DNA from: an uncultured Flavobacteriales bacterium
Lineage (GTDB): Bacteria; Bacteroidota; Bacteroidia; Flavobacteriales_G; Salibacteraceae
Length of the DNA: 64,000 nucleotides
Assembly (NCBI GenBank): GCA_943788725.1
Contig: CALSRJ010000001.1
Coordinates: 804,861 to 868,860 of the forward strand
Reading direction: 5' to 3'
Under the pieces are notes generated by a model. That model was given only the letters and a program-made list of their open reading frames with translations. It ran no database searches and was not told the DNA's origin. Made by a program: the position numbers and the translations under genes. Below, one piece after another: positions 43,040 to 50,817 of this stretch (its first letter is position 1; each line of letters starts with the position of its first letter).

Positions 43040-46000
43040 TCAACGGTTCAAATAGATGTATCCGGACGATTCATCGCCCTCTAAGGTAAGGATGTAGAAG
43101 TAAGTTCCTTCAGGAAGCACACCATTCCCTAGTGAAAATGAACCCACGGCATCCTCTCCCCCCCAGTTATTATCGTATGGTTTCTGTTCGAATACTTTGT
43201 TGCCCCATCGATTGAAAATGGTCAAAGCATTATCAGGAAATTGATCCAAACCAACGATCACGAATAGATCATTGACACCATCACCGTTCGGTGAAAACCC
43301 TTGAGGAATCAAGAACGGTGCGTCTTCCTCACAGAGGAAAGGATCTAACCAATCCGGAATACCGTTCTCATCGCAGTCGTCCCAAACGCCGTCCTTGTTA
43401 CGGTCCACTTCCGCGGAGTCGAGCAGGCCGTCGCCATCGCTGTCCTCGTCCAAGTAATTTGCTATTCCATCCTCATCCGGATCGTCGAGCGTGAATACGC
43501 AATCTCCCTCATCTCCTACTACTTCCAAGCTGTCTGGAATCGTATCCCCATCGCTGTCTTGATCTAAATGATTCGGGATGCCATCACCATCAAGGTCGCC
43601 ATATCTTTCGTAAAAATCTGGAATACCGTCTCCATCCGAATCCCTGGGAGTGATGGAGAAGGATACGAAAGAAGTATCGCAAAGAGAAGGAACGCGTTGG
43701 TCACAGACCCTGTAGGTCAGGGTATCCGCACCACAAAATCCGGAGGCTGAAAGGTATGCGATGGTATCTGTCCCCACCAAAGATGCCACTCCATTGCCCG
43801 GAGGAAGCACAACTTCTACCAGCAATCCATCGGCATCAGGATCTGAATCGTTTAGGAGAACCGCCGTATAAATGAAGGTCGAGTCAGCGCCTATTCCAAC
43901 GTCGGGCTGAGCCGTCGGTGGATTGTTCGGCGACAGGACTATATTGATGAATACCGTATCCGTATCGCAGAGACTAGGAACACCGTCATCACATATCGAG
44001 TAGAGAATGGTATCTGCACCCAAGAAAGATACAGGAGGGGAATAGCTCAAGCTATCGCCATTCAAAACGGCAACGGTGCCACCACTTGTTGGGCCACTTA
44101 TGATGGTGGTGGTCAAGAGATCATCCTCCAAATCCGTATCGTTGAATTGCACATCTATGACCGCATCAATGGTGTCCTTGTAAAATTCAGCCACATCTGA
44201 AAGGGCCACTGGAGCATCATTCACAGGAGTAATCGTGATGTAGATGAAACTCGAATCGCAAGCTTGCTCGCCCGCTACTTCGCACACGGAATAGCCAATC
44301 GTATCTACACCAAAGAAATCTACGGGGGCATCATAGCTAATCTGCAGGCTATCCAAATTCAAGAAAGTCGCTGTGCCGAGTGTTTGGGAGGAAAAGATAA
44401 TTCCAATGTGCAAAGCATCTCCATCAACGTCTGTGTCATTCAACAGCGGAGCAATCACCACCCCTGAAGTGTCTTCGCTGACCGTGATAGAGTCAACCAT
44501 CGCCACCGGCGCATCGTTTATTGGCATAACGGTGATGTACACCGTGTCCGTATCGCATAAATTTGGAAAACCATCGTCACAAACGGAATAGATCAAGGTG
44601 TCAGCACCGTTAAAATTGGAAGGAGGGATATAAACGATGCTATCCCCATTTAGCACAGTGGCAGTGCCACCACTAGTAGGTTGGGTGATGATGTTCGAAT
44701 ACAAGGAATCCAATTCTGGATCTGTGTCATTGCCCAAGACGTCGATGGTATCCCCCGGAGTATCCTCTGAAACGAACGCGTTATCCGTTGCAGCAACGGG
44801 TGCATCATTTATGGATGTTACCGTGATGTAAACGGGTGCAGAGCTGCAAAGCGATGGCGTTCCATTGTCACATATTTGATAGATCAACGTATCCAGCCCA
44901 AAGAAATTCGTGTCAGGAGAATAGGCAATATCCACACCAGATAGGGAAGCAACACCATGATATGGAGATGTCAAAATGGACGTGGTAAGGCTGTTGCCTT
45001 CTACATCAGAGTCGTTCGACTGCACCGTGAAAATATTCCCAAGTGATTCTTCTACTACGCTGACCGTATCATTCATGGCTACTGGGGCATCGTTTACAGC
45101 GGTCACCGTAATGAACACAGTGTCGGTATCGCAGAGACTTCCTACATCGCATACCGAATAGACCAGCGTATCGTTTCCAAAATAATTCGAATCTGGCGAG
45201 TAAGAAATGGAGTCGTTATTCAAGACAGAAAAGGATCCATGCCAAGGGCCGCCGATGACGGAGGTAGTCAACGCGCTTCCTTCTACATCGCTGTCGTTCG
45301 ATTGCACATCGACCACGGCATTGGTCGTGTCTTCGGTGACCGTGAACAAATCCACCACAGCTTCCGGAGGATCGTTCACCGGGGTTACAGTAATGTATAC
45401 CATGGCCGTGTCACAGGCAGAAGGAGATCCATCATCGCATACCAAGTACTGAATCGAATCCAGTCCGTTGTAATTCAGATTAGGCGAATAAAGAATCGAA
45501 TCTCCAAAGGATACCGTGTCAGATCCATTGCTGGACGAAGTCAAAATTGTAACGGTAAGTCCGTCATTTTCCAAGTCCGAATCGTTGAGCAACACGATGA
45601 ATACTGCATCCACAGCATCTTCATTTACCGTTACCGTATCGTTCAAGGCAATCGGAGCGTCGTTGACGGGTGTCACCGTGATGAACACTGTATCCGTATC
45701 GCACAATGCTGGTGAGAGCTGATCGCACACGCTGTAGACGACCGTGTCGTTGCCAAAGAAATTCGCATTCGGCGTATAGCCAACGGAATCACCCACGACC
45801 CATTCAGATCCAAAAGCAGCACTTTGAATAATGGAAACGAGGAGGGCATCACCGTCTGGATCCACGTCGTTGGCTACTACATCCACATAGCCTTGGGGGT
45901 CGTCTTCTGTAACCGTTAGCGCATCGTTGGAAGCGATGGGGGCTCGGTTGATCAGCGTTAAAAATACCTTGACCGTATCGCAATTGCCGCAGGCATCGCA

Positions 46001-49000
46001 TGCCGAATACTCAAGTGAATCGATACCTATGTACGTGGATGATGGAATCAATTGAACGCTGTCATTAGTAACCGATGCCGATCCATTATTTGGTTGTGTT
46101 ACCATAGCAATGGTCAAACTATCCCCTTCTGGGTCAGAATCGTTTGCCATGACATCAAACACAATGGCCTGGCCATGAATGACCGAATCAACCGTGTCGT
46201 TCACCGCTGTGGGTGGCTCGTTCATATCTACTTGCACCGAGTCGATCAATGTTGCCGAGCACCCTAAGAAACTCACTACTACATAAAAATCTTCCTCGAG
46301 TGCGTTGAGCAAGGATGAGCGATTGAAGACGGTGCCGTCGCCCGTATACGCCGCTCCGACCGCTGTGGTATCTGAATTACGATACACTTGGTAACTGAAT
46401 GAAGCGTTGTTTTCTGTTTGCACAGCAATCGAGACGGCATCAATAGGGCAAACCACTGCCGCTGAACCGGTCACGCTAACAGAGAGATCGGGTCCGACCA
46501 CATCGATTTGGGCGGTTCCAGCTAAATCATCGGAGCACTGCGAGACGCCGGTCGTGTCCGTAGCAATGATTCCAAAAGTCATGGCACTGTCTACATTGCC
46601 GGTAGGTAATTGAATGGTACCACCTGTTCCAGGGATTGCCGATCCGACCAAGGAGCCTGAAAGACTATCGTACAGTTGGTACTTAACCCCTAGTTCCGAA
46701 GAGAGCACCCGAAGGTTGATGGATTGTCCTACACATATGGAGCTGTCCGCCGGCAAAAAGCTCAGGGTAGTATCCGGAGAAGGATCGACCACAAATGTTA
46801 GCGTATCCTGCAAGACCGCTTCACACGTGATGCCTATAATTTTGTAGGCAAGCACACTGACATGTGTAGGATCGGTCACCAAAAGACCCGTCCGCATAAT
46901 AATATCGTTACCCGTGCCCAGAACAGAAGATCCAATCACAGTAGTAAGATCCGTGTCGTAGGGTTCATAGATGATCCCGGCCTCGGAAGACTCCAAGGTG
47001 AATACCCCCTGCTCCAATTCTTGGCATATATTGCTATCGCTAAATTCGAGATTAAGGTTTGTCGCTGGGAGTGCACAACTTACCGAGCAAACGTTAGAGC
47101 TATCACTTTCCGCATTGCCAGGCACAAAGGCCGTAGCATAGAGTGATCCCCCTGCATACAATGCAGAAACAGAGACGGTTGCGCTCCAGTTATTGGCCCC
47201 ATCAACTATCGCAGACCCAACGCTGTCTCCATCAATGTAGATGACGATGGACGCACCGACCGACGCGTGGGTACCAGATATCACGGTATCACCCTCTCCA
47301 TAATTCAGAGAGCAATCCAAGGTAGGTGCCGAAGCCGTATCCTGCACGACGCAAGTGACAGAAAGAGAGCCGGATGTGTAGCATCCCACCCCGGCAAAGC
47401 GCGCGTAGATGGAATCACCCGCTTCCATGATGTTGGAAAGGTCTCCTTGAAAGTTTTTGTAGGCCGACAGATAAAGCGTATCCATATAGGTCACTGTCGC
47501 CGAAACATCCACATGATAAATGAAAACGGTATCCAATGCGTTGCCGGTCCCAATGCCATTCACATAAGTATCACCAGCCCTCATTCCGCAGACCAGCGAA
47601 GGAGTCGCTGAAACATCTGTTACATATTTCGCTGATGATAATGCTGAAGCGCATGTCCCTGTCGTCGTTGCGCGTGCTTGAATGGAATCGCACAGCGTCA
47701 ACGTCAAACCACCAAACGTCCATATCCCAGAGGCATTGGCAGTGGTCGTTCCAATGATTCCGCCATTCTGATACACATAAATGGTAGCATTAGTATCACT
47801 CGTACCTGCTACACTCGTAGTCCCTATGCCCAACGCAGTGGTTGTGATGACAGGTGTGGAAGCACTTGACCCCAGCCCAAGACAGAGAAATATGGGGTTG
47901 GACTCGCATTCACCAGGGAGTTGCTGGGTAACGGAATAAGAACCATTGGAAAGGCAAGGGCCTCCACTTGTGCAACCAGCGGATCCATTGCACTTCCAAA
48001 TCCATGCGGAATCCGCCTGAACGGTAACAGTCCCCGTCGCATAAATAGATCCAGCGTTGGGCGTTTGAAGTGCGCCGTTAAGGTAAACCCTGATTTCCGC
48101 CCCTGGGAATGCACTACCCAAGGCTCCGCAGATTCCCTTGGTACTGATAGATGCTGATGTATCGATGATTTGAGGTGTACAATTCGAAGCGTAGGCTACC
48201 CAACGATAGACACAGTTGGTCAATGAAATAGATTTTCCCGGTGCCAATGCGGTCGCCGTTATGGAATCATTTTGATCCAAGATCGAATCCAATGCATTCA
48301 ATGACCAGTTGCCCGTGCCATCCGCAGTGATGGTATCGTATTCTACTGCCGCACCGTCCGTATAATGAATCTCAACAAATACCTGAGCATTAATCGCAGC
48401 CGATCCGTTGATAGCTGTATCTCCAGAGTATGCTTCATTGATCGCAGGGCAAGCCGTTCGCGCGGGTGGGAACCCAGAACAAGTCGCGCACAATGAGTCA
48501 AAAGGAGTAGCGACCTGTCCATTGATCATATCTTCGTAGATGCACGTTAAGCAACCTCCATACGCATCATCGTCCACGCCGCCCACATCGGATGCACTTC
48601 CTTCCAGTGCACAGGTATTTGAGGTGGATGTAACGGGAATCATGCGCAACGGCGTACTCGTGGTAATGCCAAATGCGCTGGTCAGCACGGAAAAGGGAAC
48701 GTAAAAATCATAGAGGTAATCAGCATCGCCGCAGCTTTCCTGGCCAGCGATTGCCTTCTGGTGATGTGTAGAAAGGGAAAATACCGTGTCGATGGCAGCG
48801 CAGTTATCCACACCATCGATGTCAGCAACGGAAACGTCGCTATTGGTTCGCAGAAAGAGCGCGATCTCAAATCCAGGATTGATAGATGTTGAATTGGTGT
48901 CAAAGGAACCAAATGCATTATCGGCGTCGATCAGAATCGTATATCCTTTTGCATTCGGCTTATAATCAGACAGGCGAAAACGGAAAATCAGGTTATTGCT

Positions 49001-49327
49001 ATCGTCCAAGGTGGTGTATACGGCAGCTCCATTGGTATCAGGTGATAGGTCTGTAAACCCACAATTCGGACCAGAACCGATATCGCCAGAAACCTCGCCT
49101 CCTCCCAAGATGATCATCGGGAACATGGTGATTTCGAACTCGTCTACGTCATAGCCGTCATTCGAAAAGCCAGATGTTGAATCGGAAACATATCCGTTTT
49201 GATCTGGATCCAAGACAGATGAACCCGTCTCAAATATGAATCCTTTTGATTGTGCCAATACCTCGCCCCCTAAAATCAGGAACAACGAAACGAGAAACAC
49301 TACTACCCCGTGAATTGTAAAACGCAT
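43040..49327 (-). CDS. Giant T9SS-secreted surface protein with nine cadherin-like repeats and type B sorting domain
   Basis: About 2095 residues from the ATG at 49327, followed by a signal peptide (ending EVLAQ). Residues ~20-270 form a domain with SSVLDPDQNGYVSD. Then come Ig-like modules to ~1050. Nine tandem ~95-residue cadherin-like repeats occupy 43655-46225, each opening NDAPVAxND / DxxxVxED and carrying LxNDSD, GxDTxxYSVCD and CDTDTVFITVT. Thrombospondin-3 repeats follow (DSDGDGIPDFYERYGDLDGD). The C-terminus IPQGFSPNGDGVNDLFVI ... IFNRWGNKVFEQKPYDNNW ... GTYFYILTL is the gliding-motility-associated domain used for type B T9SS sorting. It is probably a Ca2+-stiffened surface adhesin. 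The first gene of an operon with PorP/SprF and OmpA. Confidence 0.92.
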   Translation of the reverse strand: MRFTIHGVVVFLVSLFLILGGEVLAQSKGFIFETGSSVLDPDQNGYVSDSTSGFSNDGYDVDEFEITMFPMIILGGGEVSGDIGSGPNCGFTDLSPDTNGAAVYTTLDDSNNLIFRFRLSDYKPNAKGYTILIDADNAFGSFDTNSTSINPGFEIALFLRTNSDVSVADIDGVDNCAAIDTVFSLSTHHQKAIAGQESCGDADYLYDFYVPFSVLTSAFGITTSTPLRMIPVTSTSNTCALEGSASDVGGVDDDAYGGCLTCIYEDMINGQVATPFDSLCATCSGFPPARTACPAINEAYSGDTAINGSAAINAQVFVEIHYTDGAAVEYDTITADGTGNWSLNALDSILDQNDSITATALAPGKSISLTNCVYRWVAYASNCTPQIIDTSASISTKGICGALGSAFPGAEIRVYLNGALQTPNAGSIYATGTVTVQADSAWIWKCNGSAGCTSGGPCLSNGSYSVTQQLPGECESNPIFLCLGLGSSASTPVITTTALGIGTTSVAGTSDTNATIYVYQNGGIIGTTTANASGIWTFGGLTLTLCDSIQARATTTGTCASALSSAKYVTDVSATPSLVCGMRAGDTYVNGIGTGNALDTVFIYHVDVSATVTYMDTLYLSAYKNFQGDLSNIMEAGDSIYARFAGVGCYTSGSLSVTCVVQDTASAPTLDCSLNYGEGDTVISGTHASVGASIVIYIDGDSVGSAIVDGANNWSATVSVSALYAGGSLYATAFVPGNAESDSSNVCSVSCALPATNLNLEFSDSNICQELEQGVFTLESSEAGIIYEPYDTDLTTVIGSSVLGTGNDIIMRTGLLVTDPTHVSVLAYKIIGITCEAVLQDTLTFVVDPSPDTTLSFLPADSSICVGQSINLRVLSSELGVKYQLYDSLSGSLVGSAIPGTGGTIQLPTGNVDSAMTFGIIATDTTGVSQCSDDLAGTAQIDVVGPDLSVSVTGSAAVVCPIDAVSIAVQTENNASFSYQVYRNSDTTAVGAAYTGDGTVFNRSSLLNALEEDFYVVVSFLGCSATLIDSVQVDMNEPPTAVNDTVDSVIHGQAIVFDVMANDSDPEGDSLTIAMVTQPNNGSASVTNDSVQLIPSSTYIGIDSLEYSACDACGNCDTVKVFLTLINRAPIASNDALTVTEDDPQGYVDVVANDVDPDGDALLVSIIQSAAFGSEWVVGDSVGYTPNANFFGNDTVVYSVCDQLSPALCDTDTVFITVTPVNDAPIALNDTVTVNEDAVDAVFIVLLNDSDLENDGLTVTILTSSSNGSDTVSFGDSILYSPNLNYNGLDSIQYLVCDDGSPSACDTAMVYITVTPVNDPPEAVVDLFTVTEDTTNAVVDVQSNDSDVEGSALTTSVIGGPWHGSFSVLNNDSISYSPDSNYFGNDTLVYSVCDVGSLCDTDTVFITVTAVNDAPVAMNDTVSVVEESLGNIFTVQSNDSDVEGNSLTTSILTSPYHGVASLSGVDIAYSPDTNFFGLDTLIYQICDNGTPSLCSSAPVYITVTSINDAPVAATDNAFVSEDTPGDTIDVLGNDTDPELDSLYSNIITQPTSGGTATVLNGDSIVYIPPSNFNGADTLIYSVCDDGFPNLCDTDTVYITVMPINDAPVAMVDSITVSEDTSGVVIAPLLNDTDVDGDALHIGIIFSSQTLGTATFLNLDSLQISYDAPVDFFGVDTIGYSVCEVAGEQACDSSFIYITITPVNDAPVALSDVAEFYKDTIDAVIDVQFNDTDLEDDLLTTTIISGPTSGGTVAVLNGDSLSYSPPVSFLGADTILYSICDDGVPSLCDTDTVFINIVLSPNNPPTAQPDVGIGADSTFIYTAVLLNDSDPDADGLLVEVVLPPGNGVASLVGTDTIAYLSASGFCGADTLTYRVCDQRVPSLCDTSFVSFSITPRDSDGDGIPDFYERYGDLDGDGIPNHLDQDSDGDTIPDSLEVVGDEGDCVFTLDDPDEDGIANYLDEDSDGDGLLDSAEVDRNKDGVWDDCDENGIPDWLDPFLCEEDAPFLIPQGFSPNGDGVNDLFVIVGLDQFPDNALTIFNRWGNKVFEQKPYDNNWGGEDAVGSFSLGNGVLPEGTYFYILTLEGDESSGYIYLNR

Positions 49328-49521
49328 TGCAGTTAAGGGGGTTACTTTACGAATGTACGCGAAAAAATGCCCATTCTCATCCAATCCAACAATTGAGCCA
49401 CAGCCGCCTATGCCCTAGAAACATTGGGTTGGAGAATCTCAACCTCAATGAACCAATAGCAGCAGATGGCCAGCTCAAAGAAATCGTGGTCTCTGAGGTG
49501 TACGTAAATTCCGCTCGGAAG

Positions 49522-50431: not shown

Positions 50432-50439
50432 TACATTTG
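50432..50439 (+). promoter_or_regulatory. -7 promoter element (TACATTTG), probably for tRNA-Pro/Arg
   Basis: TACATTTG matches TAnnTTTG and lies 40 bp before tRNA-Pro. The predicted start falls inside the overlapping hairpin at 50439-50467, so one of the two calls may be wrong. Confidence 0.45.
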
Positions 50440-50467
50440 CCGTCCTTTAAAAAGGGCGGCATTTTTT
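50439..50467 (+). terminator. Probable terminator of the lipoprotein gene
   Basis: Stem GCCGTCC / GGGCGGC (one G-T pair) followed by ATTTTTT, 34 bp after the stop at 50405. Confidence 0.6.
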
Positions 50468-50478
50468 GTTCTTTTTTT

Positions 50479-50553
50479 CGGGGTGTAGCGTAGCCCGGTT
50501 ATCGCGCCTGCTTTGGGAGCAGGAGGTCGCAGGTTCGAATCCTGCCACCCCGA
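50479..50553 (+). tRNA. tRNA-Pro(TGG)
   Basis: Acceptor CGGGGTG / CACCCCG, D arm with TAGCGTAGCCCGG, anticodon loop CTTTGGGAG with TGG, T arm GCAGG-TTCGAAT-CCTGC and discriminator A. CCA is not encoded. Confidence 0.95.
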
Positions 50554-50555
50554 CA

Positions 50556-50585
50556 AAAGGTCTCCATGGGGGACCTTTTTTTTTG
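50556..50585 (+). terminator. Terminator after tRNA-Pro
   Basis: Stem AAGGTCTCC / GGGGACCTT around ATG (one T-G pair) followed by a run of about ten T. Confidence 0.75.
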
Positions 50586-50603
50586 CTTTGAAATGTTTTA
50601 GTC

Positions 50604-50700
50604 GGTCCACTAGCTCAATCCCGCCTTTGGCGGGACTCACGGCCTGAGACGAGATTGAAATCTCGCTCATTCCGGAGCTGGATAGAGCGCCATGCCTTGG
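50604..50700 (+). pseudogene. Broken tRNA-Arg-like copy split by a palindromic insertion
   Basis: Bases 50604-50618 (GGTCCACTAGCTCAA) equal the 5' end of the intact tRNA-Arg 131 bp downstream, and 50678-50688 (CTGGATAGAGC) equals the piece that should follow directly in its D loop. Between them lie 59 extra bases. After GAGC the copy diverges (GCCATGCCTTGGGCTTG) and has no recognisable T arm or 3' acceptor strand. It cannot fold into a working tRNA. Confidence 0.7.
50619..50677. repeat. 59-bp palindromic element inside the broken tRNA copy
   Basis: Two hairpins are visible: TCCCGCC-TTT-GGCGGGA (50619-50635) and CGAGAT-TGAA-ATCTCG (50650-50665). The element exactly separates two adjacent tRNA segments. 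No clear target duplication and no second copy in this window were seen, so a mobile-element origin is inferred from position only. Confidence 0.5.
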
Positions 50701-50734
50701 GCTTGTAGTTTTGATTGAACATTGTTCTTTATAT

Positions 50735-50808
50735 GGTCCACTAGCTCAACTGGATAGAGCAGCTGCCTTCTAAGCAGCAGGTTTCAGGTTCGAGCCCTGA
50801 GTGGATCA
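50735..50808 (+). tRNA. tRNA-Arg(TCT)
   Basis: Acceptor GGTCCAC / GTGGATC (one G-T), D arm with TAGCTCAACTGGATAGAGC, anticodon loop CTTCTAA with TCT (AGA codons), T arm CAGG-TTCGAGC-CCTG and discriminator A. CCA is not encoded. Confidence 0.95.
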
Positions 50809-50817
50809 CTTGGTGAT

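Follow-up and report, generated by a model that had tools for sequence, protein, structure and literature searches.

How did a partial copy of a tRNA gene, interrupted by two hairpins, come to lie just upstream of the intact gene, and does it represent a relic, an RNA in its own right or part of something mobile? The question is raised by a tRNA-Pro/tRNA-Arg locus in a 64-kb stretch of DNA (hereafter the window) from a host genome of 2.93 Mb in 7 contigs. A sequence-only reading had described the copy as split in its D-loop and had proposed a nonautonomous element scar or a recombination remnant.

Anatomy of the interrupted tRNA-Arg copy

The feature (50604-50688) consists of nt 1-15 of tRNA-Arg(TCT), 59 bp of other sequence and nt 16-26 of the same gene, all read on the + strand. 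The first piece, GGTCCACTAGCTCAA (50604-50618), is identical to nt 1-15 (15/15 against 50735-50749) and ends with A15 at the start of the D-loop, and the second, CTGGATAGAGC (50678-50688), is identical to nt 16-26 of the intact gene (11/11). The intact tRNA-Arg(TCT) gene (50735-50809, +) lies on the same strand, 131 bp downstream of the start of the partial copy, and the upstream neighbour is an intact tRNA-Pro(TGG) gene (50479-50554, +), both being recognized by ARAGORN and Rfam. The 59-bp insert (50619-50677), placed between A15 and C16, forms two hairpins. Hairpin 1 (50619-50635, +) has the form TCCCGCC-TTT-GGCGGGA and holds the sole copy of TCCCGCCNNNGGCGGGA in the genome. Hairpin 2 (50636-50677, +) comprises 17 base pairs interrupted by a bulged A and by one further bulge, and is supported by its pairing and by covariation in the 16 copies of the R3 family described below; it extends beyond the hairpin drawn earlier, with outer pairs CTC/GAG and CGG/CCG around the bulged A. 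Past nt 26 the tRNA-Arg copy degenerates, and sequence comparison indicates that 50689-50734 (+) comprises its decayed remainder and spacer. Sequence and BLAST thus agree with the earlier observation that pieces of 15 and 11 bases are both present, in order and parted by two hairpins. The description of a copy split in its D-loop is accurate as to the position of the insert, but what is interrupted is an extra 5′ fragment without a 3′ half rather than a whole gene, and no functional gene has been split, the intact one being kept alongside.

In a BLAST comparison of tRNA-Arg with the 64-kb window the 15-mer alone has an E value of 0.011. Chance is nevertheless negligible because the 15-mer sits 131 bp upstream on the same strand with the exact 11-mer next in order, an arrangement whose probability is roughly 1e-10 by hand estimate rather than by a computing tool. 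The segment 50604-50715 folds better than 200/200 dinucleotide shuffles both as RNA (z -3.45) and as DNA (z -4.12), and these scores together with the ordered exact match to tRNA-Arg rule out a chance origin. Rfam returned nothing at gathering score for the 59-bp insert, the best match within 50560-50734 having an E value of 0.29, and a sigma-70 scan found no site, its consensus not being expected to suit the host phylum. A group I intron was rejected as the 59 bp lie in the D-loop and not the anticodon loop, no 3′ half is present and there is no Rfam intron match.

The orthologous locus in congeners

The tRNA-Pro/tRNA-Arg locus was sought in 12 congeners, of which two (G002, G008) have contigs that end there and one (G009) was left out of the reading. 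The site is empty in 8/12 (G001, G003, G004, G006, G007, G010, G011 and G012), with tRNA-Arg following within ~60 bp of tRNA-Pro and no fragment in between. The sole filled congener site is that of G005, which shows an equal arrangement at an equal place and also has no ORF. Identity of the flanking protein to that of the window genome is 93% in G008, the closest congener, and 71% in G005.

When the inserts of the window and G005 are compared, six of the 28 drawable pairs carry double compensatory changes and two are broken in G005. Compensation of this extent was equalled by 6/500 shuffles, and sliding the pairing partners gives at most 2 double changes; as a comparison of two sequences only, it is modest evidence for the structure. 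The hairpin has been retained with compensation across 29% protein divergence, unlike a decaying scar, and such persistence fits structure selection or symmetry-restoring repair as well as it fits mobility. The compensating pairs in G005 and in the other copies described below indicate that a structure, of RNA or of DNA, is maintained. The feature is not simply a dead scar: pair compensation in another species, which the sequence-only reading had named beforehand as refuting its proposal and as a sign of a functional RNA, is what G005 displays.

Copies of the double hairpin at other sites

A DNA search of the window's own genome with a 101-bp stretch returned only the self match, diverged copies being detectable only by covariance models. 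Model R1, built from the window and G005 copies with their tRNA flanks included, matched 3/35 family genomes and picked up copies at other tRNA genes of G005 and G008. Model R2, built from six copies, also includes tRNA flanks and is not usable as evidence of tRNA preference; it matched 8/395 genomes of the class (19 rows) and on its own added one tRNA site in G208 (Arg-TCT) and one in G315 (Phe). Model R3 describes hairpin 2 only and contains no tRNA sequence, its 16 training copies all coming from R1 and R2 hits. In this training set 15/19 pairs carry double changes (55 cells), a value reached in 0/500 shuffles.

R3 matched 9/395 genomes of the class, the 35 rows merging into 31 sites, of which 14 were new relative to R1 and R2 (three at tRNA fragments and 11 elsewhere). 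The window copy, itself among the 16 training sequences, is matched at 50634-50677 with 46.9 bits and is the sole R3 hit in the window. With all flanks read, 20/31 sites lie in tRNA fragments (six in G126, five in G008, three each in G000 and G092, two in G005 and one in G193), including two weak cases with one side decayed (G092:C16 and G126:C20), two G008 sites (C4 and C11) that are probably one site split by contig ends, and two at G008:C13 for which the intact tRNA gene is beyond the contig end. The other 11/31 are outside recognisable tRNA fragments (five in G193, three in G388, two in G306 and one in G257, the last being 79 bp past tRNA-Ala with no clear fragment), which rules out a double hairpin exclusive to tRNA fragments.

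The genome from which the window comes has three R3 copies: the window site at tRNA-Arg(TCT), C3:377371-377415 at tRNA-Arg(TCG) and C2:28428-28509 at tRNA-His(GTG). Each interrupts the D-loop of a 5′ fragment that directly precedes an intact tRNA gene. The tRNA-His locus is empty in G001, G002 and G007, where two overlapping hits show the upstream flank continuous with the tRNA. These empty sites imply that the fragment marks the original place of the gene and that the 5′ part of the now intact gene is the added copy. The searches for further element copies and for empty sites that had been proposed with the sequence-only reading were thus both productive, and because copies and empty sites exist a nonautonomous element is preferred over chance or a one-off scar. 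That part of the earlier proposal stands, whilst the notion of a simple dead scar is abandoned since compensating pairs persist.

Small GIY-YIG elements beside tRNA genes

Relatives bearing an ORF reveal a fuller form, in which an ORF for a GIY-YIG nuclease of ~80 aa adjoins a tRNA gene and is accompanied by a palindrome-interrupted tRNA fragment. At the tRNA-Pro gene of G001, a 5′ fragment with its anticodon arm replaced by TCCCGCC-TTA-GGCGGGA is followed by a GIY-YIG ORF (with one stop) and then by the intact tRNA-Pro. Comparable 5′ fragments with a D-loop palindrome and an ORF occur at genes for Arg(TCT) (L090), Val (L101 and L111), Ala (L097) and Arg(CCT) (L102), and 3′ forms at Pro (L093) and Ala (L077). 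Most of the ORF-bearing elements read contain single palindromes and not the double hairpin; by R2 and R3 the only link between the two is an element at tRNA-His (L290) that holds both double hairpin and ORF. All 10 members of the nuclease profile match Pfam GIY-YIG, and the closest solved structures by sequence profile are UPF0213 proteins and SLX1 (PDB 4xlg, 1zg2, 1ywl).

No GIY-YIG match was found within the 64-kb window, and the window copy has no ORF. Elsewhere in the same genome, a 3′-type ORF-bearing element (L365, C1:306600-310200) is present at tRNA-Met (C1:307328-307402), with a GIY-YIG ORF at 309423 that appears intact from its sequence. Approximately 2 kb, including a transposase-like coding sequence, separate tRNA-Met from this ORF, behind which lie tRNA-Met nt 21-59, within which TCCGCC-TCA-GGCGGA is embedded, and nt 59-75, parted by a further insert. 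The genome also contains a decayed GIY-YIG ORF after tRNA-Ala (L076).

A GTDB scan with three nuclease proteins gave 71 loci in many phyla, and the nuclease profile matches 205/296 genomes of the class, although not every match is at a tRNA. Loci with a tRNA and a partial tRNA copy were found in Patescibacteria-type, Ignavibacteria, Nitrospirae, Neomarinimicrobiota and Omnitrophica records. ORFs lie at most 600 bp from a tRNA gene in 46/76 cases of the GTDB set and 87/125 of the class set (133/201 together, in a protein-selected sample), the remaining 68/201 having no tRNA within that distance, and all 133 of the former are on the tRNA strand. A partial tRNA copy is present at 30/69 ORF-bearing loci of the GTDB set and 65/89 of the class set, and in the 202 loci read, hand-picked ones included, 253 partial copies are on the parent's strand and 3 on the opposite one. 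Among the best-scoring 30 general GIY-YIG loci, a tRNA was present at 0/23 with a profile score below 60 bits and at 4/7 above it.

The ends of the tRNA fragments are enriched in palindromes. Hairpins of at least 8 pairs start at 92/244 fragment ends versus 84/1861 random positions (51/97 loci), and a laxer test gave 164/321 versus 824/5045. Where hairpins could be placed on tRNAs shorter than 80 nt (n=75), 53 fall at nt 20-23, 32-39 or 52-59, corresponding to the D, anticodon and T loops. The phylogeny of the nuclease follows tRNA isotype: on a tree of 93 sequences, one per locus, there are 41 isotype changes, whereas 300 shuffles average 65.6 and never fall below 57, and 18 changes between 5′ and 3′ arrangement against a shuffled mean of 29.3 (minimum 22), the tree having few columns and 49/90 open forks and being used for its clustering only. 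Duplication extends beyond the tRNA gene in 9/37 5′ and 21/51 3′ fragments, judged by an identity of 70% or more over 30 nt (controls 0/778). In L120, L123, L192 and L201, which are four of these nine 5′ fragments, we read the shared flank as resembling the terminal part of an ORF copy lying upstream, and hence as a tandem insertion. For CCTGCCTGCCGGCAGGCAGG, a common palindrome of ORF-bearing elements, 5/6 sites in 8 genomes are away from tRNAs and 1/6 is in a tRNA fragment, ruling out palindromes exclusive to tRNA elements.

Tandem arrays of the GIY-YIG elements were also observed, with ten copies in 457-bp steps at L253 (G139:C9:906052-910392) and four copies each in G226 (322 bp) and G273 (404 bp).

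Discussion

We consider that the window feature is probably an ORF-less double-hairpin element that interrupts, at the D-loop, a duplicated 5′ portion of tRNA-Arg(TCT), and that it is a member or an offshoot of a class of very small tRNA-gene-targeting elements. It possesses the same-strand partial tRNA copy and the loop palindrome of that class and lacks the GIY-YIG ORF, and is therefore classed not as a full member but as a derivative or look-alike without an ORF. Its place in the R3 family follows from the covariance match of hairpin 2 and from its absence at the orthologous site in relatives. A member or derivative is the preferred assignment because the window feature shares every anatomical trait of the class except the ORF and because L290 joins both kinds. 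The reading draws on the anatomy, the copies at several tRNA genes, the empty sites, the compensation within pairs and the tendency of small GIY-YIG ORFs to occur with tRNA genes and with fragments that bear palindromes.

In a cycle of this kind the nuclease would cut a tRNA gene at or near a loop, and repair from an element-bearing copy would insert the palindrome and ORF and duplicate the gene's 5′ or 3′ portion. An intact tRNA gene would always remain owing to the duplication, and the displaced part, marked by its palindrome, would decay. In the full form the palindromes lie at the D, anticodon, variable or T loops of the partial copy, and ORF-less copies such as the window copy and its relatives would be either remnants or non-autonomous copies relying on a nuclease made elsewhere. 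Action in trans by a nuclease encoded elsewhere in the same genome is possible, since the ORF at tRNA-Met is apparently intact. We infer cleavage, homing, the origin of the palindromes, mobilisation in trans and the nuclease link, the last with reserve because the double hairpin and the palindromes also occur off tRNAs, the ORFs are partly without a tRNA and the persistence of the hairpin is ambiguous.

The same arrangement could result from two unrelated events with no nuclease involved, namely tandem duplication of the 5′ part of the tRNA gene followed by insertion of a REP/MITE-like palindrome into the spare copy, the D-loop position then reflecting tolerance or a cruciform-prone site. Such a history agrees with the occurrence of the double-hairpin family and the common palindromes away from tRNAs, with the lack of an ORF in the window copy and with the flank duplications counted above, which are expected of local duplication. 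We nevertheless find it rather unlikely, as fragment, loop hairpin and same-strand intact gene recur over many tRNA genes and phyla with one nuclease clade, and a coupling this frequent would not be expected of two independent accidents. REP sequences have RAYT transposases as partners; the elements described here resemble REP and MITE-like repeats as short dispersed palindromes without an ORF, some of them off tRNAs, but differ in having a GIY-YIG nuclease as the enzyme next to them and, within the window's genus, in residing mostly in tRNA fragments.

A structured RNA with a function in the tRNA transcription unit, under selection for instance for processing or stability of the tRNA-Arg precursor, would account for the compensatory changes between the window and G005, for the double changes throughout the 16 R3 copies and for the retention of the hairpin while the flanking protein fell to 71% identity; it is also consistent with the finding of no terminator-like site between the insert and the intact tRNA-Arg (50689-50734). 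This explanation appears quite improbable given that the structure is missing from 8/12 congeners at the orthologous locus, is present at unrelated tRNA genes and also off tRNAs, and has no Rfam match. Symmetry-restoring repair of DNA palindromes can produce paired changes, and could have yielded those seen here without selection on an RNA. As tRNA genes are classic attachment sites for integrase elements, which leave partial tRNA copies, the remnant of such an element or a prophage attachment site also has to be weighed, and we regard it as scarcely credible. The duplicated part is the 5′ part rather than the 3′ end, the insert interrupts the D-loop, tRNA-Pro and the upstream protein gene are undisturbed in the congeners read and a like insert occurs in fragments of other tRNA genes; on the duplicated 5′ part and the conserved flanks the feature was rejected as a member of that class.

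As described in the accessible part of PMC13096335, SegB is a free-standing GIY-YIG homing endonuclease of T-even phages located beside tRNA genes, is reported to cleave inside tRNA genes and to favour the tandem amplification of a tRNA-nuclease unit, and has a gene whose 3′ end is homologous to the 5′ end of a tRNA. The bacterial elements, compared with what that part of the source describes, similarly place a GIY-YIG nuclease adjoining tRNA genes and form tandem arrays (10 copies at G139:C9), but they reside in bacterial chromosomes, their ORF of ~80-100 aa extends barely beyond the catalytic domain, and they include a palindrome-interrupted tRNA fragment and ORF-less double hairpins. The SegB-like traits of placement, strand and isotype specificity were checked for the bacterial elements from sequence alone.

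Paquin et al. reportedly described in 1994, at the Allomyces atp6 gene, a mitochondrial endonuclease ORF that carries a duplicated end of its host gene. There, as here, the element's own copy restores the interrupted gene and the displaced part is left as a pseudogene fragment; atp6 is a protein gene, and its element is not known to bear a palindrome mark, whereas the target here is a tRNA gene. Truncated copies of atp6 and atp9 in a fungal mitochondrion are described in the accessible part of PMC4162613. Allomyces mitochondria also contain double-hairpin elements (Paquin, Laforest, Lang 2000) which, as far as the available summary in PMC2800124 goes, are likewise short, mobile-looking, composed of two hairpins and without an ORF, a likeness in form. 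Those elements, as summarised, are mitochondrial; the present ones are bacterial and mostly in tRNA-gene fragments by an intact gene.

SLX1 cuts branched DNA, an activity that would suit hairpin or cruciform substrates. SLX1 and UPF0213 proteins differ from the nucleases considered here, however, in having housekeeping repair or unknown roles, SLX1 in having extra domains, and the general GIY-YIG loci of low profile score in having no tRNA. No description of bacterial elements combining a GIY-YIG nuclease, a tRNA fragment and a palindrome was found in the open-access PMC papers searched, subscription journals and preprints being mostly outside that scope, and in the accessible part of PMC1564403 no statement on tRNA-gene neighbourhood was found.

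By analogy with the guide-plus-scaffold RNAs of IscB/TnpB-like nucleases, a transcript of tRNA fragment and hairpin might guide or recruit the GIY-YIG nuclease to the matching tRNA gene, with ORF-less copies retargeting a nuclease made elsewhere. We regard this as a long shot, which if true would explain why covarying hairpins abut 15-30 nt of target match and why one hairpin family is found within fragments of many different tRNA genes.

tRNA genes are known docking sites for large integrase elements. The tRNA-gene-targeting elements to which we assign the window feature are of a few hundred bases or less, and would duplicate part of the tRNA gene and mark it with a palindrome in such a way that the gene stays whole. 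If they home, they rank among the smallest selfish DNAs in bacteria and would account for odd partial tRNAs in annotations, and it becomes testable how a nuclease of ~80 aa recognises a single tRNA gene and by what route the palindromes originate and keep their symmetry.

Other features of the locus and its relatives

Just upstream of tRNA-Pro, directly after a TACATTTG box, the window contains a hairpin that resembles a terminator, T run included (GCCGTCC..GGGCGGC TTTTTT, 50438-50461); it is visible in 10/10 congener loci showing that place and is possibly an attenuator of the tRNA unit. Further upstream, on the minus strand (43040-49384), a 2114-aa ORF with a FSPNGDGVNDLF end apparently encodes a secreted repeat protein, such an end being typical of Bacteroidota secretion.

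A 3′ fragment of tRNA-Arg (nt 45-75; L004 1224-1254) lies downstream of the intact gene and is 31/31 identical in G005, and shorter tRNA-Arg 3′ fragments (..TCCTGATTGGGT(C/T)AC..) are present in G007, in G011 and at another Arg gene of G004 (L038, L040, L044). In G005 a second, longer pseudo-tRNA was observed 5′ of tRNA-Pro (L033); it is a tRNA-Pro copy with a D-arm hairpin, the anticodon arm swapped for a palindrome and the T arm retained. The same genome has an intergenic repeat in three near-copies (L277, L278, L279) composed of GTCTTTCGTC runs, a TGTCCGCC..GGCGGACA hairpin and CCTGCCTGCCGGCAGGCAGG. In genus g122, double hairpins of the R3 family occupy intergenic sites with no tRNA (L306, L307, L312, L314, L315, L320, L322, L326, L331, L332); a few of these are followed by TTCGAG, as in a T-loop, and may represent lost tRNA fragments.
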